Assembly: GCF_036077095.1 (NCBI RefSeq)
Contig: NZ_CP107962.1
Span: 186,001 to 250,000 of the forward strand
Origin: Streptomyces sp. NBC_00376
GTDB lineage: Bacteria > Actinomycetota > Actinomycetes > Streptomycetales > Streptomycetaceae
DNA: 64,000 nt
Direction: 5' to 3'
The notes below the pieces were generated by a model. The model had not been told where the DNA came from. It ran no database searches and saw only the letters and a list, made by a program, of their open reading frames with translations. Of the stretch, positions 26,433 through 33,166 are shown piece by piece; within the stretch, counting starts at the first letter, position 1; the number at the start of each line of letters is the position of its first letter. The translations under genes and the position numbers were made by a program.

Positions 26433-27013
26433 GGCGCTGTCACGTTGTTGGGTGTGTGAGTGCCTGATGGTGTGTCGGGTGTGGTGGGGTCGGGTTCCGG
26501 CTCCGTGCTCAGGCCGTGGTGGGCCGGCTTGCAGCGCCGGTGATCTGGTCCCAGATGGCGAAGCGGGTGGTCATCTCGGTGCGGTATTCGGGGGCGGTCA
26601 TCAGGTGGCGGCGTGGTCGGAAGTGGGGTGAGATGCCGCTGAACGCGGACAGGAACTGCTGGGCTCCGCCGACGCTACGGAAGCCTTTCATGGCGCGTTC
26701 GCGCTGGCGGGTGGGCTGGTGGCTGTTCTCCGCCCGGTTGTTGAGGCCCTTGTGGGCGCGGTGTTCTACGGAGGGCATGACCTCGCGGTGGGCCGCGCCG
26801 TAGGAGCGGAGCTTGTCGGTGACGATCACCCTCGGCACCGAGCAGGTTCTCTTGAGCAGTTTGCGGAAGAAGCGCCGGGCCGCGGCCTTGTCCCGGCGGG
26901 ACCGGACCAGGATGTCGAGCACGTTGCCGTCGGCGTCAACGGCCCGCCACAGGTACTTCTGCTCTCCGTTGATCTTCACGAAGACCTCGTCCAGGTGCTT
27001 CCCAATGCCGATG

Positions 27014-28210
27014 TCAAGCCGCCGTCGTCACTGAGGGTATGACCTGGTAGCACCGTCGGTCACGGATCAGAGCCCACAGGACGTTGACGCGACGGCGTGC
27101 GAGCGCGAGGACGGCCTGGACGTGCCGTTTCCCCTCGGCGCGCTTGCGGTCGTAAAACTTCCGTGAGTTGGGGTCTCGTTGGACGCTGACCAGCGCGGAG
27201 ATGTAGAAGACGCGCTGCAGGCGACGGTGGTATCTCGTCGGTCGGTGGTCGTTACCGCTGACCTGGCCGGAGTCGCGTGGGGCGGGGACCACGCCGGCGA
27301 AGGCCGCGAGCCGGTCGGCCGTGGGGAAGGCGTCCAGGCTGCCGCCGACGGCGACGAGGAACTCGGCACCGAGGATCGTGCCGATGCCGGGCATGGACTG
27401 GATCACGTCGGCCAGTTCGTGTTCGCGAAACCGGCCCTCGATGAGTTTGTCGGTCTCGGTGATCTTCTCGTTGAGGACCATCACCTCCTTGGCGAGGGTG
27501 TGCACCATCTTCGCGATGGCCTTCTCACCCACGACGGCGGTGTGCTGGCGCTCGGCGGCCTCAACCACCTTCTCGGCGAGGGCAGCAGCGTTGCAGACCT
27601 TGCGGTTGCGCAGCCAGGCGGTCAGCCGCCGACTGCCCGCGCGGCGGATCGCTGCCGGTGTCTGGTAACCGGTTAGCAGCACCAGCGGGCCGACGTTACC
27701 CAGGTCGAGGGCCCGTTCCAGGGCCGGAAACATGCTGTTCAGCAGGGCCTTGAGCCGGTTGGTGGTGCGGGTGCGGTCGGCGACCAGATCGACGCGGTGG
27801 TCGGTCAGCAGCCGCAGCTCGAGCGTGGCTTCGTCGCCGGGGCGGATCGGCTGGAGGTCGCGGCGCATCCGGGCCTGGTCGGCGATCACGCGGGCGTCAC
27901 GGGCGTCCGTCTTGCCCTGGCCGCGGTAGCTGTCGGTGGCCCGGTTGACCGCGATACCGGGGATGTAGACGAGCTCCTGGCCATGGTTGACCAGAAGGGC
28001 GATCAGCAGGCCGGGCTCGCCGCCGGTCATGTCAAGCGCCCAGGTCGTCTTGCCGCCGTCGGCGAGGTCCAGGACGTCACCGATCAGCTTCAGCAGTTCC
28101 GGCTCGTCGTTGGCCACCCGACGCGACAGCAGCGTGTCGCCCTCGCTGTCCAGGACCAGGCAGTGGTGGTGGGTCTTGCCGCAGTCGGTTCCCGCCCATA
28201 TCCGGCTCAT
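27014..28210 (-). CDS. IS110-family transposase (bridge-RNA-guided recombinase), copy 1
   Basis: 398 residues from ATG 28210 (MSRIWAGTDCGKTHHHCLVL). N-terminal RuvC-like DEDD domain: Asp in GTDCGK, acidic residue in WALDMTGG, Asp pair in KTDARDARVIAD. Helical middle, then the Transposase_20 domain: SMPGIGTILGAEFLVAVGGS and APRDSGQVSG, with the serine position used in IS110 catalysis. Identical in sequence to copy 2. Upstream in-frame codons to 28372 would run through the guide RNA and are not counted. Confidence 0.93.
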   Translation of the reverse strand: MSRIWAGTDCGKTHHHCLVLDSEGDTLLSRRVANDEPELLKLIGDVLDLADGGKTTWALDMTGGEPGLLIALLVNHGQELVYIPGIAVNRATDSYRGQGKTDARDARVIADQARMRRDLQPIRPGDEATLELRLLTDHRVDLVADRTRTTNRLKALLNSMFPALERALDLGNVGPLVLLTGYQTPAAIRRAGSRRLTAWLRNRKVCNAAALAEKVVEAAERQHTAVVGEKAIAKMVHTLAKEVMVLNEKITETDKLIEGRFREHELADVIQSMPGIGTILGAEFLVAVGGSLDAFPTADRLAAFAGVVPAPRDSGQVSGNDHRPTRYHRRLQRVFYISALVSVQRDPNSRKFYDRKRAEGKRHVQAVLALARRRVNVLWALIRDRRCYQVIPSVTTAA

Positions 28211-28239
28211 CGTGCTCCATTCGGTCGTACATGCCTTGC

Positions 28240-28424
28240 GTACCACGGACGACCTCGCCGGCATTGCTCTACACAGCGACTTGTTCGCACTTCCCAATCG
28301 GCGGCCGAGTCGTCGTGGGGAGCCAGGCGGCCAAGCACCTGAAGCCACGAACGGCAGCCACTTGTCAGCCACACCCAGCTCCCCTGGGTGTCCTCACCCT
28401 ACGAACGGGAGGACCAACCCGTTC
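28240..28424 (-). ncRNA. Bridge RNA candidate, copy 1
   Basis: Mirror of the copy 2 RNA. Target guides at 28357-28365 (ACAAGTGGC on the minus strand) and 28335-28341 (CAGGTGC); donor guides at 28290-28298 (ATTGGGAAG) and 28266-28272 (GTAGAGC). Its target guides match the flanks of this copy as well as those of copy 2. Confidence 0.8.
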
Positions 28425-28733
28425 AAGAAGGTAGAGCCACTTGTCGCCGGGCCGGGGCCGCCTCCGGCGCAGGCCGTTGGCGTAGGCCTGCCCGAACTTC
28501 GCACACCAGCGGCGGACCGTCTCGTGGGAGACGACCACGCCGCGCTCGAGCATCAGCTCCTCGACCTCGCGGAACGACAGCGGGAAGCGGTGGTACAGCC
28601 ACACACAGTGGGCAATGACCTCGACCGGGTACCGGTGCCCCTTGTACGACGGCGATGCGCTGTCCACGGACGACCCCTCCCAGCATGACCAACCAGAAGA
28701 TCATCCCACCCGGTCAGTCAACGTGACAGTGCC

Positions 28734-28969
28734 TCCCGCAGGAGCTGGTGCCGCACTGCCTGCGGCATTCGTACGTCACCCACAACATCGAAGACGGCGT
28801 CGACCCGAAGTTCATCCAGGAACAGGTCGGCCACCTCTATGCATCCACCACCGCCCTCTACACCGCGGTCAGCGACGACTTCGCCAACGCGATGATACTC
28901 AAGGCCATCGACCTGGCCTTCGAAAGCGATCCCGGCCCCAAGGCCCCAGAACGGAGCGGACGATCATGA
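28734..28969 (+). pseudogene. Tyrosine recombinase, C-terminal fragment
   Basis: The frame begins at the IS6 end and reads QELVPHCLRHSYVTHNIEDG, then DPKFIQEQVGHLYASTTALY to a stop at 28969. HCLRHSYVTH is the HxLRH catalytic box and TALY carries the nucleophilic Tyr. The N-terminal and core-binding parts were lost with the IS6 insertion. The stop overlaps the start of the XRE gene (ATGA), so both belonged to one operon. Confidence 0.85.
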
Positions 28970-29006
28970 CGGCCAAGCTCGACTACAAGTGGCTCTACCT
29001 TCTTGA

Positions 29007-29190
29007 ACGGGTTGGTCCTCCCGTTCGTAGGGTGAGGACACCCAGGGGAGCTGGGTGTGGCTGACAAGTGGCTGCCGTTCGTGGCTTCAGGTGCTTGGCC
29101 GCCTGGCTCCCCACGACGACTCGGCCGCCGATTGGGAAGTGCGAACAAGTCGCTGTGTAGAGCAATGCCGGCGAGGTCGTCCGTGGTACG
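29007..29190 (+). ncRNA. Bridge RNA candidate, copy 2
   Basis: 5' hairpin GAACGGG/CCCGTTC (29005-29026). Target loop closed by GGGGAGC (29045-29051) and GCTCCCC (29106-29112), containing ACAAGTGGC (29064-29072) and CAGGTGC (29088-29094). Donor loop closed by GACGAC (29115-29120) and GTCGTC (29176-29181), containing ATTGGGAAG (29131-29139) and GTAGAGC (29157-29163). First pair matches the target 14-mer; second pair matches the element's own ends. Limits are estimates from the junction promoter and last stem. Confidence 0.82.
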
Positions 29191-29218
29191 CAAGGCATGT
29201 ACGACCGAATGGAGCACG

Positions 29219-30415
29219 ATGAGCCGGATATGGGCGGGAACCGACTGCGGCAAGACCCACCACCACTGCCTGGTCCTGGACAGCGAGGGCGACACGCTGC
29301 TGTCGCGTCGGGTGGCCAACGACGAGCCGGAACTGCTGAAGCTGATCGGTGACGTCCTGGACCTCGCCGACGGCGGCAAGACGACCTGGGCGCTTGACAT
29401 GACCGGCGGCGAGCCCGGCCTGCTGATCGCCCTTCTGGTCAACCATGGCCAGGAGCTCGTCTACATCCCCGGTATCGCGGTCAACCGGGCCACCGACAGC
29501 TACCGCGGCCAGGGCAAGACGGACGCCCGTGACGCCCGCGTGATCGCCGACCAGGCCCGGATGCGCCGCGACCTCCAGCCGATCCGCCCCGGCGACGAAG
29601 CCACGCTCGAGCTGCGGCTGCTGACCGACCACCGCGTCGATCTGGTCGCCGACCGCACCCGCACCACCAACCGGCTCAAGGCCCTGCTGAACAGCATGTT
29701 TCCGGCCCTGGAACGGGCCCTCGACCTGGGTAACGTCGGCCCGCTGGTGCTGCTAACCGGTTACCAGACACCGGCAGCGATCCGCCGCGCGGGCAGTCGG
29801 CGGCTGACCGCCTGGCTGCGCAACCGCAAGGTCTGCAACGCTGCTGCCCTCGCCGAGAAGGTGGTTGAGGCCGCCGAGCGCCAGCACACCGCCGTCGTGG
29901 GTGAGAAGGCCATCGCGAAGATGGTGCACACCCTCGCCAAGGAGGTGATGGTCCTCAACGAGAAGATCACCGAGACCGACAAACTCATCGAGGGCCGGTT
30001 TCGCGAACACGAACTGGCCGACGTGATCCAGTCCATGCCCGGCATCGGCACGATCCTCGGTGCCGAGTTCCTCGTCGCCGTCGGCGGCAGCCTGGACGCC
30101 TTCCCCACGGCCGACCGGCTCGCGGCCTTCGCCGGCGTGGTCCCCGCCCCACGCGACTCCGGCCAGGTCAGCGGTAACGACCACCGACCGACGAGATACC
30201 ACCGTCGCCTGCAGCGCGTCTTCTACATCTCCGCGCTGGTCAGCGTCCAACGAGACCCCAACTCACGGAAGTTTTACGACCGCAAGCGCGCCGAGGGGAA
30301 ACGGCACGTCCAGGCCGTCCTCGCGCTCGCACGCCGTCGCGTCAACGTCCTGTGGGCTCTGATCCGTGACCGACGGTGCTACCAGGTCATACCCTCAGTG
30401 ACGACGGCGGCTTGA
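29219..30415 (+). CDS. IS110-family transposase (bridge-RNA-guided recombinase), copy 2
   Basis: 398 residues, ATG 29219 with GGAG just upstream. Same sequence as copy 1: DEDD domain (GTDCGKTHHH, WALDMTGG, KTDARDARVIAD), coiled middle (VLNEKITETDKLIEGRF), and C-terminal Transposase_20 with APRDSGQVSG. In characterised IS110 systems the protein binds the bridge RNA and recombines donor and target at a dinucleotide core. The stop codon overlaps TTGACA at the right end. Both copies look intact and could be active. Confidence 0.94.
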   Translation: MSRIWAGTDCGKTHHHCLVLDSEGDTLLSRRVANDEPELLKLIGDVLDLADGGKTTWALDMTGGEPGLLIALLVNHGQELVYIPGIAVNRATDSYRGQGKTDARDARVIADQARMRRDLQPIRPGDEATLELRLLTDHRVDLVADRTRTTNRLKALLNSMFPALERALDLGNVGPLVLLTGYQTPAAIRRAGSRRLTAWLRNRKVCNAAALAEKVVEAAERQHTAVVGEKAIAKMVHTLAKEVMVLNEKITETDKLIEGRFREHELADVIQSMPGIGTILGAEFLVAVGGSLDAFPTADRLAAFAGVVPAPRDSGQVSGNDHRPTRYHRRLQRVFYISALVSVQRDPNSRKFYDRKRAEGKRHVQAVLALARRRVNVLWALIRDRRCYQVIPSVTTAA

Positions 30416-30417
30416 CA
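30412..30417 (+). promoter_or_regulatory. Right-end half of junction promoter (-35)
   Basis: TTGACA at the right end of the element. In a circular form the right end, GC core and left end would place it 17 bp before TACCTT (28996-29001), giving a complete sigma-70-like promoter reading into the guide RNA. In the integrated form the halves are 1.4 kb apart. Confidence 0.65.
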
Positions 30418-30730
30418 TCGGCATTGGGAAGCACCTGCGCGAAGTCATGGCCACCAAGGGGATGTTTTCCACGACTGACCTGCGGCCGCAGCTTGCCGAG
30501 CGGGGCATCAACCTGTCCCCCAGCCAGATCTACCGGTTGGTGGTCGAGGTGCCGGAACGGCTCAACCTCAAGGTGCTGATGGCTCTGCTGGACATTCTCG
30601 AATGCTCCATGGACGACCTGATCGAGCCGGTCGCCGCGGGCAGGCCCCGGGCCAAGAAGGCCGCGGACGGCACCGAGACCACAGGGGTGGGAGACTTCCG
30701 GCCCAAGCGGGCCCGGATCGTTCGGCCGTC

Positions 30731-33166
30731 ATGACCACCGTCCCGAGGGCCGAAGCGGACCCGAACGCGGTGATCGTCGATCTGATCGCTGCGATCGAGC
30801 CCGGCTTGCCGCCGGATACGGTCCAGCGCGCGATTGCACAGGCCGTACACGCCAAGCCGCGTGCTGTCCTCTTGGCCCGGACACTGGAGCGCGATCCCGG
30901 GCTCCTCACCTCGGGCCGGGCCGAAGGCCCGGCTTCGGTTGAGCGTCTGATCCGCTCTCTCGCCCAGGTCGGCGCCACCAACGTCGTTCGGCCGCCGTGC
31001 TCGCGCTGCGGCAGGTTGGAGCCGCTCACGAACACCGATGGATCCGGCCTGCGGACGTGTGCCTCATGCGGTCGCGCGCGCCCGAATGGGGGATGGACCT
31101 GCAGCGTCTGCGGCAAGCGCAACACTCCGCGCTACGGGCTGGACCGCTCTGGTCGTGAAGCCTGCCGCTCCTGCTACAGGGCCGAGTGCACCGAGGACCC
31201 GACCGCGGACCTCCTGAACTACCTCAACACCCTTGCCTTCGGACTCGACGAGTCCGTGCTCCAGGACGTAGTCGCCGAGGTCACCAAGGGCAGCAGTCCG
31301 ATCACCCGGCGCCTGCTCTGGGACATTCAGAACCAGCCGGGTCTGCTGGCCGGGCAGGCCCACCACTACGGGCCCCGAACCCTCCTTCTGGCCGAGCGCC
31401 TGCACCAGGCCGGAGCCGACGGCGTCCCGGCGCCCAAGTGCCCGCACTGCGACCGCGCGATCCGACTCAGCCACTCCATCAAGCGGTTGCGGGTCTGCGG
31501 CACGTGCTACAACCGCTCGACTGCCCAGCCCTGCACGCACTGCGGTCGCACCCGGCCCGTCGCTGGCCGCACCACCGAGGGCGCCCCCTTCTGCAGCGAC
31601 TGCCGCAACAAGGACGTGACCTGCCAAGAGACCTGCGTCAACTGCGGCCGCCATCGGGCCGTCTCCGCCCGGACCGGGAACGGCCCGCTCTGCTCGTCCT
31701 GCCGTAAGCCACCCAGGATGCAGTGCAGCACCTGCGGCAAGGTTCGCCCCTGCTTCCACAGCGCCGCCGGCACACCACGCTGCCGGGCCTGCCTGACAAA
31801 ACTGGAGCCCTGCACCGACTGTGGACGTCCCTCCCGCGTTGTCGCCCGCACCCCTCGGGGACCGTTCTGCGAAAACTGCTGGGAGGTCGCTCCCGAGGCC
31901 CGCAAGCCGTGCCAACAGTGCGGCACCGTCGAGAAGCTCTTTCACTTCGGCCTCTGCCAGCGATGCGCTGGCGAACGTCACTTGCGACAGCTGCTGACCT
32001 CGCCGAACGGCGAGCTCCGTCCGGAGCTCGACCGGGTCGCAACCGCCCTCCTGGACTTCAATTCCCGCCGAACCCTGCTCTATCTGCGCGAATCGGCTAC
32101 GGCCAAGGAACTGGTCACTGACCTCGGCACCGGAGCCTGCGACCTCACCCACGAGGACCTCGACGCACGGATGTCCGGCCCGAAGGATCTGTCCGTCGAC
32201 TACTTCCGCTCCGTCCTGGTCTCGGCCGGCGTCCTGCCCGTCCGTGATGAGTACCTGGCCCGGCTGGAGCGGTGGGTCCAGTTCAAGATCGAGGCTTTGG
32301 ACGATCCGGAAGACCGCCAGCTGATCACCGCGTTCGCCCGCTGGGACCGTGTCGTCCGCATCAGGCGCCGGGCCCGGGGCAAACCGATCTCACCAGCGGC
32401 AGTCGATGTCGCCCAGAGCCAGATCGCCAAGGCCGTCACCTTCCTGACCTGGCTCAAGAAGCACGATGCGACCTTGGCGATCTGCGATCAAACGCTCATC
32501 GATCTCTGGCTCACCTCGGAGAACCACCAAGGCCCCTATATCGCGCGCGCATTCGTTGCCTGGGCTGTTCGCAGCAAGTACGCCTCCGGCATCAGCATCC
32601 CCAACCGGCCCCAGAGATCCTTCTACCGGCCGCTCGACGCCGACGAACGCTGGACGATCGCCCGCCAGCTCCTCAACGACGACTCCTTCGAAACCAGAGA
32701 CCGCGTCACCGGGCTCATGGTCCTGCTCTACGGACAGACTCCCGCCAAGATCAGCCAGCTGACTACCTCGCACGTCATCCACGACGACAAGGGGGTCGCC
32801 ATACAGCTTCACAAGACACCACTGAGGCTCCCGCCACCCCTGGACGAACTCGTGCTTCAGCTCGTCGAGATCGCCCGCAGCCACGAACACATGGTTATGT
32901 CCAACGAGCAGAACACGCCCTGGCTCTTCCCGACCCAGCGACCCGGGAAGCCGCTGACGAACCGACGGCTCACAAGAAGACTCCACAACATCGGGCTTCC
33001 CTCCGAAGCCGCACGATGCGCCGCCCTGCTCGACCTCTGCATCCAGATGCCCCCGGCCGTGTTGCAACGGCTCCTCGGAGTCAGCTCCTTCGCCGCCGAA
33101 CGGTGGGCGGCAGGAGCCGTCAGAACCGCCTACGCGGCCGAGGTGGCCCGTCGCTCAGATACGTGA
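30731..33166 (+). CDS. Zinc-ribbon protein with degenerate tyrosine-recombinase domain
   Basis: 811 residues, start overlapping the XRE stop. Residues ~90-430 contain about eight CxxC...CxxC zinc ribbons (CSRCG, CSVCGKRN, CPHCDRA, CTHCGR, CVNCGR, CSTCGK, CTDCGR, CQQCGT). Residues ~480-800 follow the tyrosine recombinase fold: SAM-like region (VTFLTWLKKHDATLAICD) then GLMVLLYGQTPAKISQLTTS. The usual first Arg is replaced (LYGQTP), no HxLRH box is seen, and the final Tyr position has Trp (AERWAAG). Probably DNA-binding but not catalytic; partner of the upstream integrase. Confidence 0.75.
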   Translation: MTTVPRAEADPNAVIVDLIAAIEPGLPPDTVQRAIAQAVHAKPRAVLLARTLERDPGLLTSGRAEGPASVERLIRSLAQVGATNVVRPPCSRCGRLEPLTNTDGSGLRTCASCGRARPNGGWTCSVCGKRNTPRYGLDRSGREACRSCYRAECTEDPTADLLNYLNTLAFGLDESVLQDVVAEVTKGSSPITRRLLWDIQNQPGLLAGQAHHYGPRTLLLAERLHQAGADGVPAPKCPHCDRAIRLSHSIKRLRVCGTCYNRSTAQPCTHCGRTRPVAGRTTEGAPFCSDCRNKDVTCQETCVNCGRHRAVSARTGNGPLCSSCRKPPRMQCSTCGKVRPCFHSAAGTPRCRACLTKLEPCTDCGRPSRVVARTPRGPFCENCWEVAPEARKPCQQCGTVEKLFHFGLCQRCAGERHLRQLLTSPNGELRPELDRVATALLDFNSRRTLLYLRESATAKELVTDLGTGACDLTHEDLDARMSGPKDLSVDYFRSVLVSAGVLPVRDEYLARLERWVQFKIEALDDPEDRQLITAFARWDRVVRIRRRARGKPISPAAVDVAQSQIAKAVTFLTWLKKHDATLAICDQTLIDLWLTSENHQGPYIARAFVAWAVRSKYASGISIPNRPQRSFYRPLDADERWTIARQLLNDDSFETRDRVTGLMVLLYGQTPAKISQLTTSHVIHDDKGVAIQLHKTPLRLPPPLDELVLQLVEIARSHEHMVMSNEQNTPWLFPTQRPGKPLTNRRLTRRLHNIGLPSEAARCAALLDLCIQMPPAVLQRLLGVSSFAAERWAAGAVRTAYAAEVARRSDT

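Follow-up and report, generated by a model that had tools for sequence, protein, structure and literature searches.

A predicted bridge RNA matching the insertion site and the ends of a GC-core IS110-family element in Streptomyces

Does an IS110-family element carry, in its own non-coding end, the address at which it was inserted? The question is raised by the window analyzed here, i.e., the whole stretch of 64,000 nucleotides from Streptomyces sp. NBC_00376, which sits in a 429-kb contig of a 10.04-Mb genome and harbors two identical IS110-family elements (Table 1). An earlier inspection of the letters (the sequence-only reading) had proposed that a loop in the left end of the forward-strand copy spells out its insertion site. 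Our analysis indicates that this insertion sequence very probably specifies a bridge RNA in its left end, that segments of the predicted RNA match the 14-base site as well as the element's own ends, and that the recombinase likely joins a circular form to the site at a GC core. At the level of sequence, this is supported by four guide matches, a conserved two-loop fold, guides and targets that change jointly from relative to relative, and eleven occupied sites along with uninterrupted ones.

Table 1. Features of the IS110-family element, its predicted RNA, and the interrupted genes in the window
Feature	Position	Strand	Basis
IS110-family element, core to core	28992-30432	+	copy under study
Second identical copy	26997-28437	-	1453/1453 bases the same including target halves; LTG 28357-28365, RTG 28335-28341 (inner coordinates computed from the alignment)
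IS110 recombinase gene, 398 aa	29219-30415	+	PF01548, PF02371; NF033542 "IS110 family RNA-guided transposase"
Left target (LT) ACAAGTG	28985-28991	+	same 7 bases beside 11/11 copies
Core GC, left copy	28992-28993	+	single in uninterrupted sites, at both ends when occupied
Right donor (RD) TCTAC	28994-28998	+	complement of core+RD equals RDG; RDG matches in 74/76 unique insertions of the selected set
TACCTT, -10-like half of predicted junction promoter	28996-29001	+	would form only with the ends joined
5' hairpin GAACGGG/CCCGTTC of predicted RNA	29005-29026	+	single-sequence fold
Predicted target-binding loop	29045-29112	+	stem 29045-29055/29102-29112 and 29059-29061/29098-29100; inner hairpin 29074-29077/29082-29085
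Left target guide (LTG) ACAAGTGGC	29064-29072	+	equals 28985-28993; co-varies in relatives
Right target guide (RTG) CAGGTGC	29088-29094	+	complement of 30431-30437; co-varies in relatives
Target-loop handshake bases TT	29095-29096	+	complement the last two left-donor bases (AA)
Predicted donor-binding loop	29115-29181	+	stem 29115-29121/29175-29181 and 29124-29127/29169-29172; inner hairpin 29141-29144/29150-29153
Left donor guide (LDG) TTGGGAAG	29132-29139	+	equals 30424-30431; exact in 48/76 unique insertions
Right donor guide (RDG) GTAGAGC	29157-29163	+	complement of core+RD GCTCTAC, 28992-28998
TTGACA, -35-like half of predicted junction promoter	30412-30417	+	overlaps the recombinase stop codon
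Left donor (LD) TTGGGAA in right end	30424-30430	+	equals the LDG bases
Core GC, right copy	30431-30432	+	sequence
Right target (RT) ACCTG	30433-30437	+	ACCTG in 8/11 copies, ATCTG in 3/11
IS6-family transposase gene split by second copy	26557-28667	-	pieces 28434-28667 and 26557-27030; NF033587
HTH regulator gene split by + copy	28966-30734	+	pieces 28966-28993 and 30433-30734

Target site, target-binding loop, and recombinase

Identity between the two copies in the window spans exactly 1453 bp (28985-30437 in the forward copy), and the adjoining base differs on either side. The shared block is bounded precisely by LT and RT in two different genes. Since it runs from LT plus core on the left to core plus RT on the right in both copies, the target is fixed as ACAAGTG-GC-ACCTG.

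Every letter and coordinate that had been given for the loop and its surroundings was exact: ACAAGTGGC is found in the loop and at the left junction, CAGGTGC in the loop, its partner GCACCTG at the right junction, and the closing stem is formed by GGGGAGC (29045-29051) and GCTCCCC (29106-29112). Both guides correspond to their target halves without mismatch, the LTG by identity and the RTG as the complement. When the left end (229 nt) was shuffled by letters 200,000 times, the 9-mer occurred in 156 shuffles and both segments in order in none. The IS621-like target geometry, also suggested from the letters, was borne out, as layout, guide polarity, and loop order agree with IS621 in the available text of PMC11208160 and PMC11208158. 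The two bases after the RTG (TT) complement the last two bases of the left donor (AA), a relation termed a handshake in PMC11208158. The sequence-only reading was right on the target loop, and it had missed the donor loop, the promoter-like sequence across the joined ends, the second copy, the meaning of the GC core, and the location of 10 of the 11 genomic copies in IS6 sequence.

The recombinase carries DEDD (RuvC-like) and Transposase_20 domains (Pfam PF01548, 5.6e-52; PF02371, 1.6e-20) and scored 224 bits with the NCBIfam model NF033542 (cut-off 140). S314 was aligned with the serine of RRYESG in ISCro4 and IS621, D102/D105 were aligned with KTD..DAR as a weak match only, and D9 and D60 were invariant in 14 sequences. 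At the second acidic position of the DEDD motif the protein seems to have Asp60, whereas IS621 has Glu60 (equivalence by position, without alignment). Other open frames running through the left end (e.g., 29057-30415) were discarded, since it is the 398-aa frame beginning at 29219 that relatives match.

A long non-coding end 5' of the gene (225 nt upstream of the recombinase gene, 15 nt downstream) and a target duplication consisting of the core only, given the single GC in uninterrupted sites, place the element in the IS110 group. The window element lacks the non-coding region downstream of the gene that marks the IS1111 group and, with its GC core, the CT core of the IS621 subgroup, and it scored 40.1 bits with the TIGR-Tas model NF052498 (cut-off 100). 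The most similar named copy, at 99.1%, is found on a Streptomyces plasmid, and the named relatives belong to Streptomyces and allied genera. A 99% copy (L163, NZ_CP108263) is itself apparently interrupted by another transposase. The contig of the window also bears a relative with a 59% identical protein (L012, G000:C3:33905-35257), in which the core is TC by eye and the guide GTCAACCTC faces the flank TGCAACCTC.

Donor-binding loop, junction promoter, and predicted fold

Behind the target-binding loop, the left end would form a donor-binding loop whose guides (LDG and RDG, within 29132-29163) match the element's own ends exactly in the window element. The base following the LDG is T, whereas the core has C, so that LDG pairing would cover all seven bases of the donor but, of the core, just the first. 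Eight bases are likewise paired at the LDG in the IS621 structure, according to the available part of PMC11208158.

Joining the right and the left end generates the promoter-like sequence TTGACA-17-TACCTT, with the 17-nt spacer counted from the junction sequence. A donor end was recognizable in 44 of 56 related loci, and in 43 of these it is preceded by TTGA[CT].

RNAalifold was applied to 33 distinct left ends, and its consensus consisted of a stem around LTG, hairpin, and RTG, followed by a stem around LDG, hairpin, and RDG. The target-binding loop was paired in 31-33 of the 33 sequences with compensatory changes; one stem position shows A-U, U-A, U-G, and C-G, and two sequences are unpaired there. 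The donor-binding loop was paired in 32-33 of the 33, mostly by invariant bases, and hence adds little to the evidence for the fold. The 5' hairpin of the single-sequence fold was not recovered as such in this consensus, and the left end alone folded no better than its shuffles (z -0.44; 62 of 200 at least as good). A search of the 64-kb window with Rfam gave no family above its threshold.

Taken together, these features are consistent with the following sequence of events. The element would be excised as a circle, in which the joined ends form the promoter-like sequence and allow transcription of the predicted bridge RNA. This RNA would be bound by the recombinase, LTG and RTG would pair with the 14-base site and LDG and RDG with the element's ends, and strand exchange would then join circle and site at the shared GC core.

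In the available parts of PMC11208160 and PMC11208158, IS621 is described with the same recombinase domains, a left-end non-coding RNA with target and donor loops, the same guide polarity and target layout, one shared core, a promoter-like sequence over the joined ends, and target-loop handshake bases. The window element differs in its core (GC vs. CT), in the RTG, which would pair over 7 nt instead of 4, and in the RDG, a contiguous 7-mer here and nine discontiguous nucleotides against seven donor bases in IS621. The donor-loop handshake published for IS621 was not seen in the group of the window element, and the landing sites lie in coding sequences, most of them belonging to a different mobile element, rather than in REP elements. 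As longer RTGs were reported for some IS621 orthologues (PMC11208160, as far as available), only part of these differences lies outside the prior description.

Similar to the seekRNA of IS1111/IS110 elements (accessible text of PMC11187229), the RNA predicted here derives from the non-coding region and matches both target strands. The same source describes natural retargeting between the relatives ISEc11 and ISXne4. In its first group the non-coding region lies downstream of the gene, whereas it lies upstream in the window element. Among the listed titles and abstract openings of openly accessible papers, neither this element nor its guide was found described. For a GC-core IS110 element whose occupied and uninterrupted sites both occur in nature, the guide set predicted at this locus is complete (LTG, RTG, LDG, RDG, and target-loop handshake), which would make it useful for testing whether bridge recombinases require a CT core.

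Guides and sites among relatives and in the same genome

Homologous insertions were compared for co-variation of target and guides, a test that the sequence-only reading had itself named as able to refute it. Relatives with other guides were found at other sites, most of which match them, and together with the conserved pairing of the stem this supports the loop as a target-binding loop of a putative bridge RNA. In a first set, 45 of 56 related loci were analyzed (11 partial loci omitted), and 42 gave both LT and LTG. The two were identical at 9/9 positions in 36 of these 42 loci, with 15 distinct LTGs.

A wider set of 141 loci comprised the first relatives, the results of a search of 392 genomes of the same genus (two candidates per genome scored), and the element's own copies. 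It was readable in 66 loci (55 unique insertions), with anchors that favor GC-core elements; the other 75 were unreadable for want of the target-loop anchor (34), the right end (21), or the left end (20). LT equaled LTG at 9/9 positions in 43 of the 55 unique insertions and, excluding own copies, in 33 of 45, with 16 distinct LTGs. The remaining 12 of the 55 were read as five wobble-compatible cases, two single mismatches, three guides one base off register, and two longer guides. Over 25 guide combinations, RT matched the RTG at a mean of 3.82 of 5 positions (shuffled, 1.62; none of 20,000 shuffles as high), and pairing was loose at positions 2, 3, and 5 (exact in 20, 23, and 22 of 33).

A third set (85 of the 141 loci, 76 unique) was preselected for LT-LTG matches of at least 7/9, and its LT-LTG counts were therefore not used as evidence of co-variation. 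The counts for coding frames, right-end stops, RDG, LDG, and handshake as well as the recombinase pairs all rest on this selected set. The RDG fits its own donor in 74 of the 76 unique insertions, and its six types are tied to core and end sequence, with none found in the wrong class. The LDG is exact in 48 of 76 only. The target-loop handshake holds in 74 of the 75 insertions read, with CT against AG in four, whereas the published donor-loop handshake was full in 1 of 74 and present at position 7 in 11 of 74.

These comparisons also bear on the possibility that the recombinase protein alone reads the site and that the loop segments are leftover captured target DNA. Full-length elements sharing ACAAGTGGC do have closely related recombinases (92-100%), as this would predict; however, in the selected set, recombinases that are 91.9-93.2% identical carry different LTGs and use different sites, which fit their own loops at 8/9 or 9/9 positions. 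In 32 of the 40 pairs given, both members fit their own site at 9/9, and the remaining eight involve one locus (L043) at 8/9; many of the 40 pairs repeat the copies of one strain. Moreover, what the element carries as its right guide is the complement of the other strand, and it lies within a stem-loop fold that is conserved. Right donor guides also change together with ends and core. We consider recognition by the protein alone very improbable.

Cores among the relatives were GC, TC, or GT. In a TC-core group (L119, L120, L123-L125, L131, L132, and L142), guides like AAAAGGCTC fit their own sites. In L020, L045, and L069, a right-end-like sequence lies approximately 580 nt past the recombinase match, perhaps due to a nested insertion or extra cargo. 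Distant relatives (L134, L136, L137, L140, L143, L145, L158, and L161) have CATG/TCAT guides and (T)CCTT right flanks, which we read as a start codon and the complement of a ribosome-binding site. In a test of the start-codon reading of the TCAT guides, the left flank was in phase in 5 of 9 cases compared to 26 of 124 in the background (Fisher 0.032), numbers too small to support that reading. With their guides and right flanks (TCCTT in, e.g., L134, L136, L140, L143, and L161), these relatives resemble the motif CATGNNNNNNTCTCCTT of IS900, an IS110-family element of 1451 bp that seldom inserts into coding sequence (PMC8141618, as far as available). Guide and site of the window element are unrelated to that motif.

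The genome contains eleven full-length copies of the element, all at the 14-base site (13/14 letters in three of them). The single changed RT base in the three ATCTG copies is allowed by G-U pairing with the RTG. Ten of the eleven copies lie in IS6-family transposase sequence (NF033587, assigned from an uninterrupted gene copy in the same genome), whereas the forward copy in the window is inserted at this 14-mer in an HTH gene unrelated to IS6. With the flanks joined, the ten copies read ...GDKWHLDE... and the forward copy in the window reads ...DYKWHLRE.... The first part of the IS6 transposase is found on the left of all ten copies and the remainder on the right of nine. In other genomes, loci with the same guide read ...GDKW on the left flank in 6 of 6 cases. 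The guide is aimed at the D-K-W-H-L codons, which we take to precede the catalytic Asp of IS6-family transposases, and most insertions would therefore inactivate a rival mobile element. A known element is said to target another mobile element likewise, at its terminal repeat, whereas here it is codons of the IS6 transposase, close to its presumed catalytic Asp, that are targeted.

The HTH gene was found uninterrupted, with a single GC core, on three plasmids (NZ_CP029602, NZ_CP108815, and NZ_CP107900); the site agrees in 14/14 letters in two of them and has ATCTG in one. The gene of NZ_CP029602 encodes an HTH_26 domain. On all three plasmids, a tyrosine recombinase gene precedes the HTH gene. 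Three further ACAAGTGGCACCTG sites in the genome are uninterrupted, all within IS6 sequence. Target codons of two IS6 copies (L172 and L173) were not readable with the patterns used.

The concentration in IS6 sequence could alternatively stem from IS6-driven duplication, or from homologous recombination between IS6 copies, instead of guided insertion. Three copies (L002, L005, and L006) have 200-nt flanks that are 99-100% alike and are possibly duplicates, and one (L003) has IS6 sequence on the left flank only. Against such an origin, all remaining pairs among the eleven copies stay at or below 95% on both 200-nt flanks (ungapped comparison), one copy lies in a non-IS6 gene with which only the 14-mer is shared, and in this genome IS6 sites with ACAAGTGGCAYCTG are occupied in 10 of 13 cases and those with ACAAGTGGCATCTC in 0 of 3 (Fisher 0.036). 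Spread of the copies by these routes is highly unlikely, and guided insertion is preferred.

Stop codons at the sites of relatives

Distinct LTGs of the relatives start with TCA, the complement of the stop codon TGA, in 10 of 15 cases in the first set and in 13 of 16 in the wider set without own copies. The 303 bases to the right of the site were searched for their best coding frame, and an insertion was counted as lying at a gene stop codon when this frame ran toward the element in phase with the TGA. This applied to 21 of 34 TCAG-guided insertions in the selected set, compared with 25 of 199 background TCAGNNNGC sites (Fisher 3e-9), and to 16 of 26 when counted once per distinct RNA. Ten of the in-phase genes were checked by Pfam and contained known domains; at least two in-phase frames (L043 and L046) are doubtful by eye.

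Read in the register of the gene, the 27 distinct right ends of the TCAG-guided group have a stop at codon index 2 in 23 cases and at index 4 in one, and the other two registers have none before index 9. The index-2 stop reads Ala-Ser-stop in GC-core elements. By bringing this early in-register stop, the insertion would swap the stop codon and spare the gene. The in-register stop is absent from the nine unique copies of the window element that were read in the selected set; of three relatives with the guide of the window element, two keep a stop at index 4 and one has none.

We lean towards the reading that guides in this Streptomyces IS110 clade recognize host-gene stop codons and that the right end brings a replacement in register ("Ala-x-stop" becoming "Ala-Ser-stop", with the gene still working). 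The window element would then be an offshoot whose guide was rewritten to the IS6 catalytic motif and whose spare stop has since been lost. If true, this would explain how guided landing in coding sequence avoids gene killing, and how a change of guide makes the element a parasite of another transposon.

A tenable, though less favored, explanation is that the coincidence with stop codons is a by-product: the left donor TTAGGAAGC would resemble the left target TCAGGCGGC since the loops are built alike, and GC-rich 9-mers beginning with TCAG are common at gene ends in these genomes. Indeed, the same test applied to background sites with identical 9-mers placed 8 of 25 at the end of a gene, which accounts for part of the effect, and the difference from 21 of 34 is then modest (Fisher 0.022). 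Likewise, among seven TC-core elements with guides of the AAAAGGCTC type, six have retained the in-frame TAA while lacking a TCA guide. The excess over the TCAGNNNGC background and the restriction of early stops to one register of the right ends speak for the exchange of stop codons rather than for a by-product.

The proposed exchange was examined in detail at a UPF0102 gene in one genome (G058), at the end of which an element (L111) is located. Listed matches spanned the joined site in 147 of the 150 genomes compared within the genus. The three others were G058, split there, G001, matched over the first 73 bases only, and G102, whose match fell outside the listing. Of 30 loci read, 29 were uninterrupted, with TGA in register in 27 and displaced by two bases in two. 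At this position the occupied allele has TTAGGAAGC, with a TAA supplied by the element. The L111 guide is not a 9/9 match (TCAGGCTGG vs. TCAGGCGGC). A locus at a Ku gene (L107) was dropped as a test, as none of the matches listed spanned its joined site well.

The predicted stop-codon exchange of the relatives would be the more novel part of this work compared to the guide of the window element. The listed titles and abstract openings of openly accessible papers revealed no description of IS110 insertion at stop codons. In the available text, "stop codon" occurs 0 times in PMC11187229, whose one "termination codon" is that of the transposase gene, and "stop" 0 times in PMC11208160. In Streptomyces sp. 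AC1-42W, one element is present four times (L030, L032, L033, and L035) with near-identical repeated left flanks, and the gene-end test failed there.
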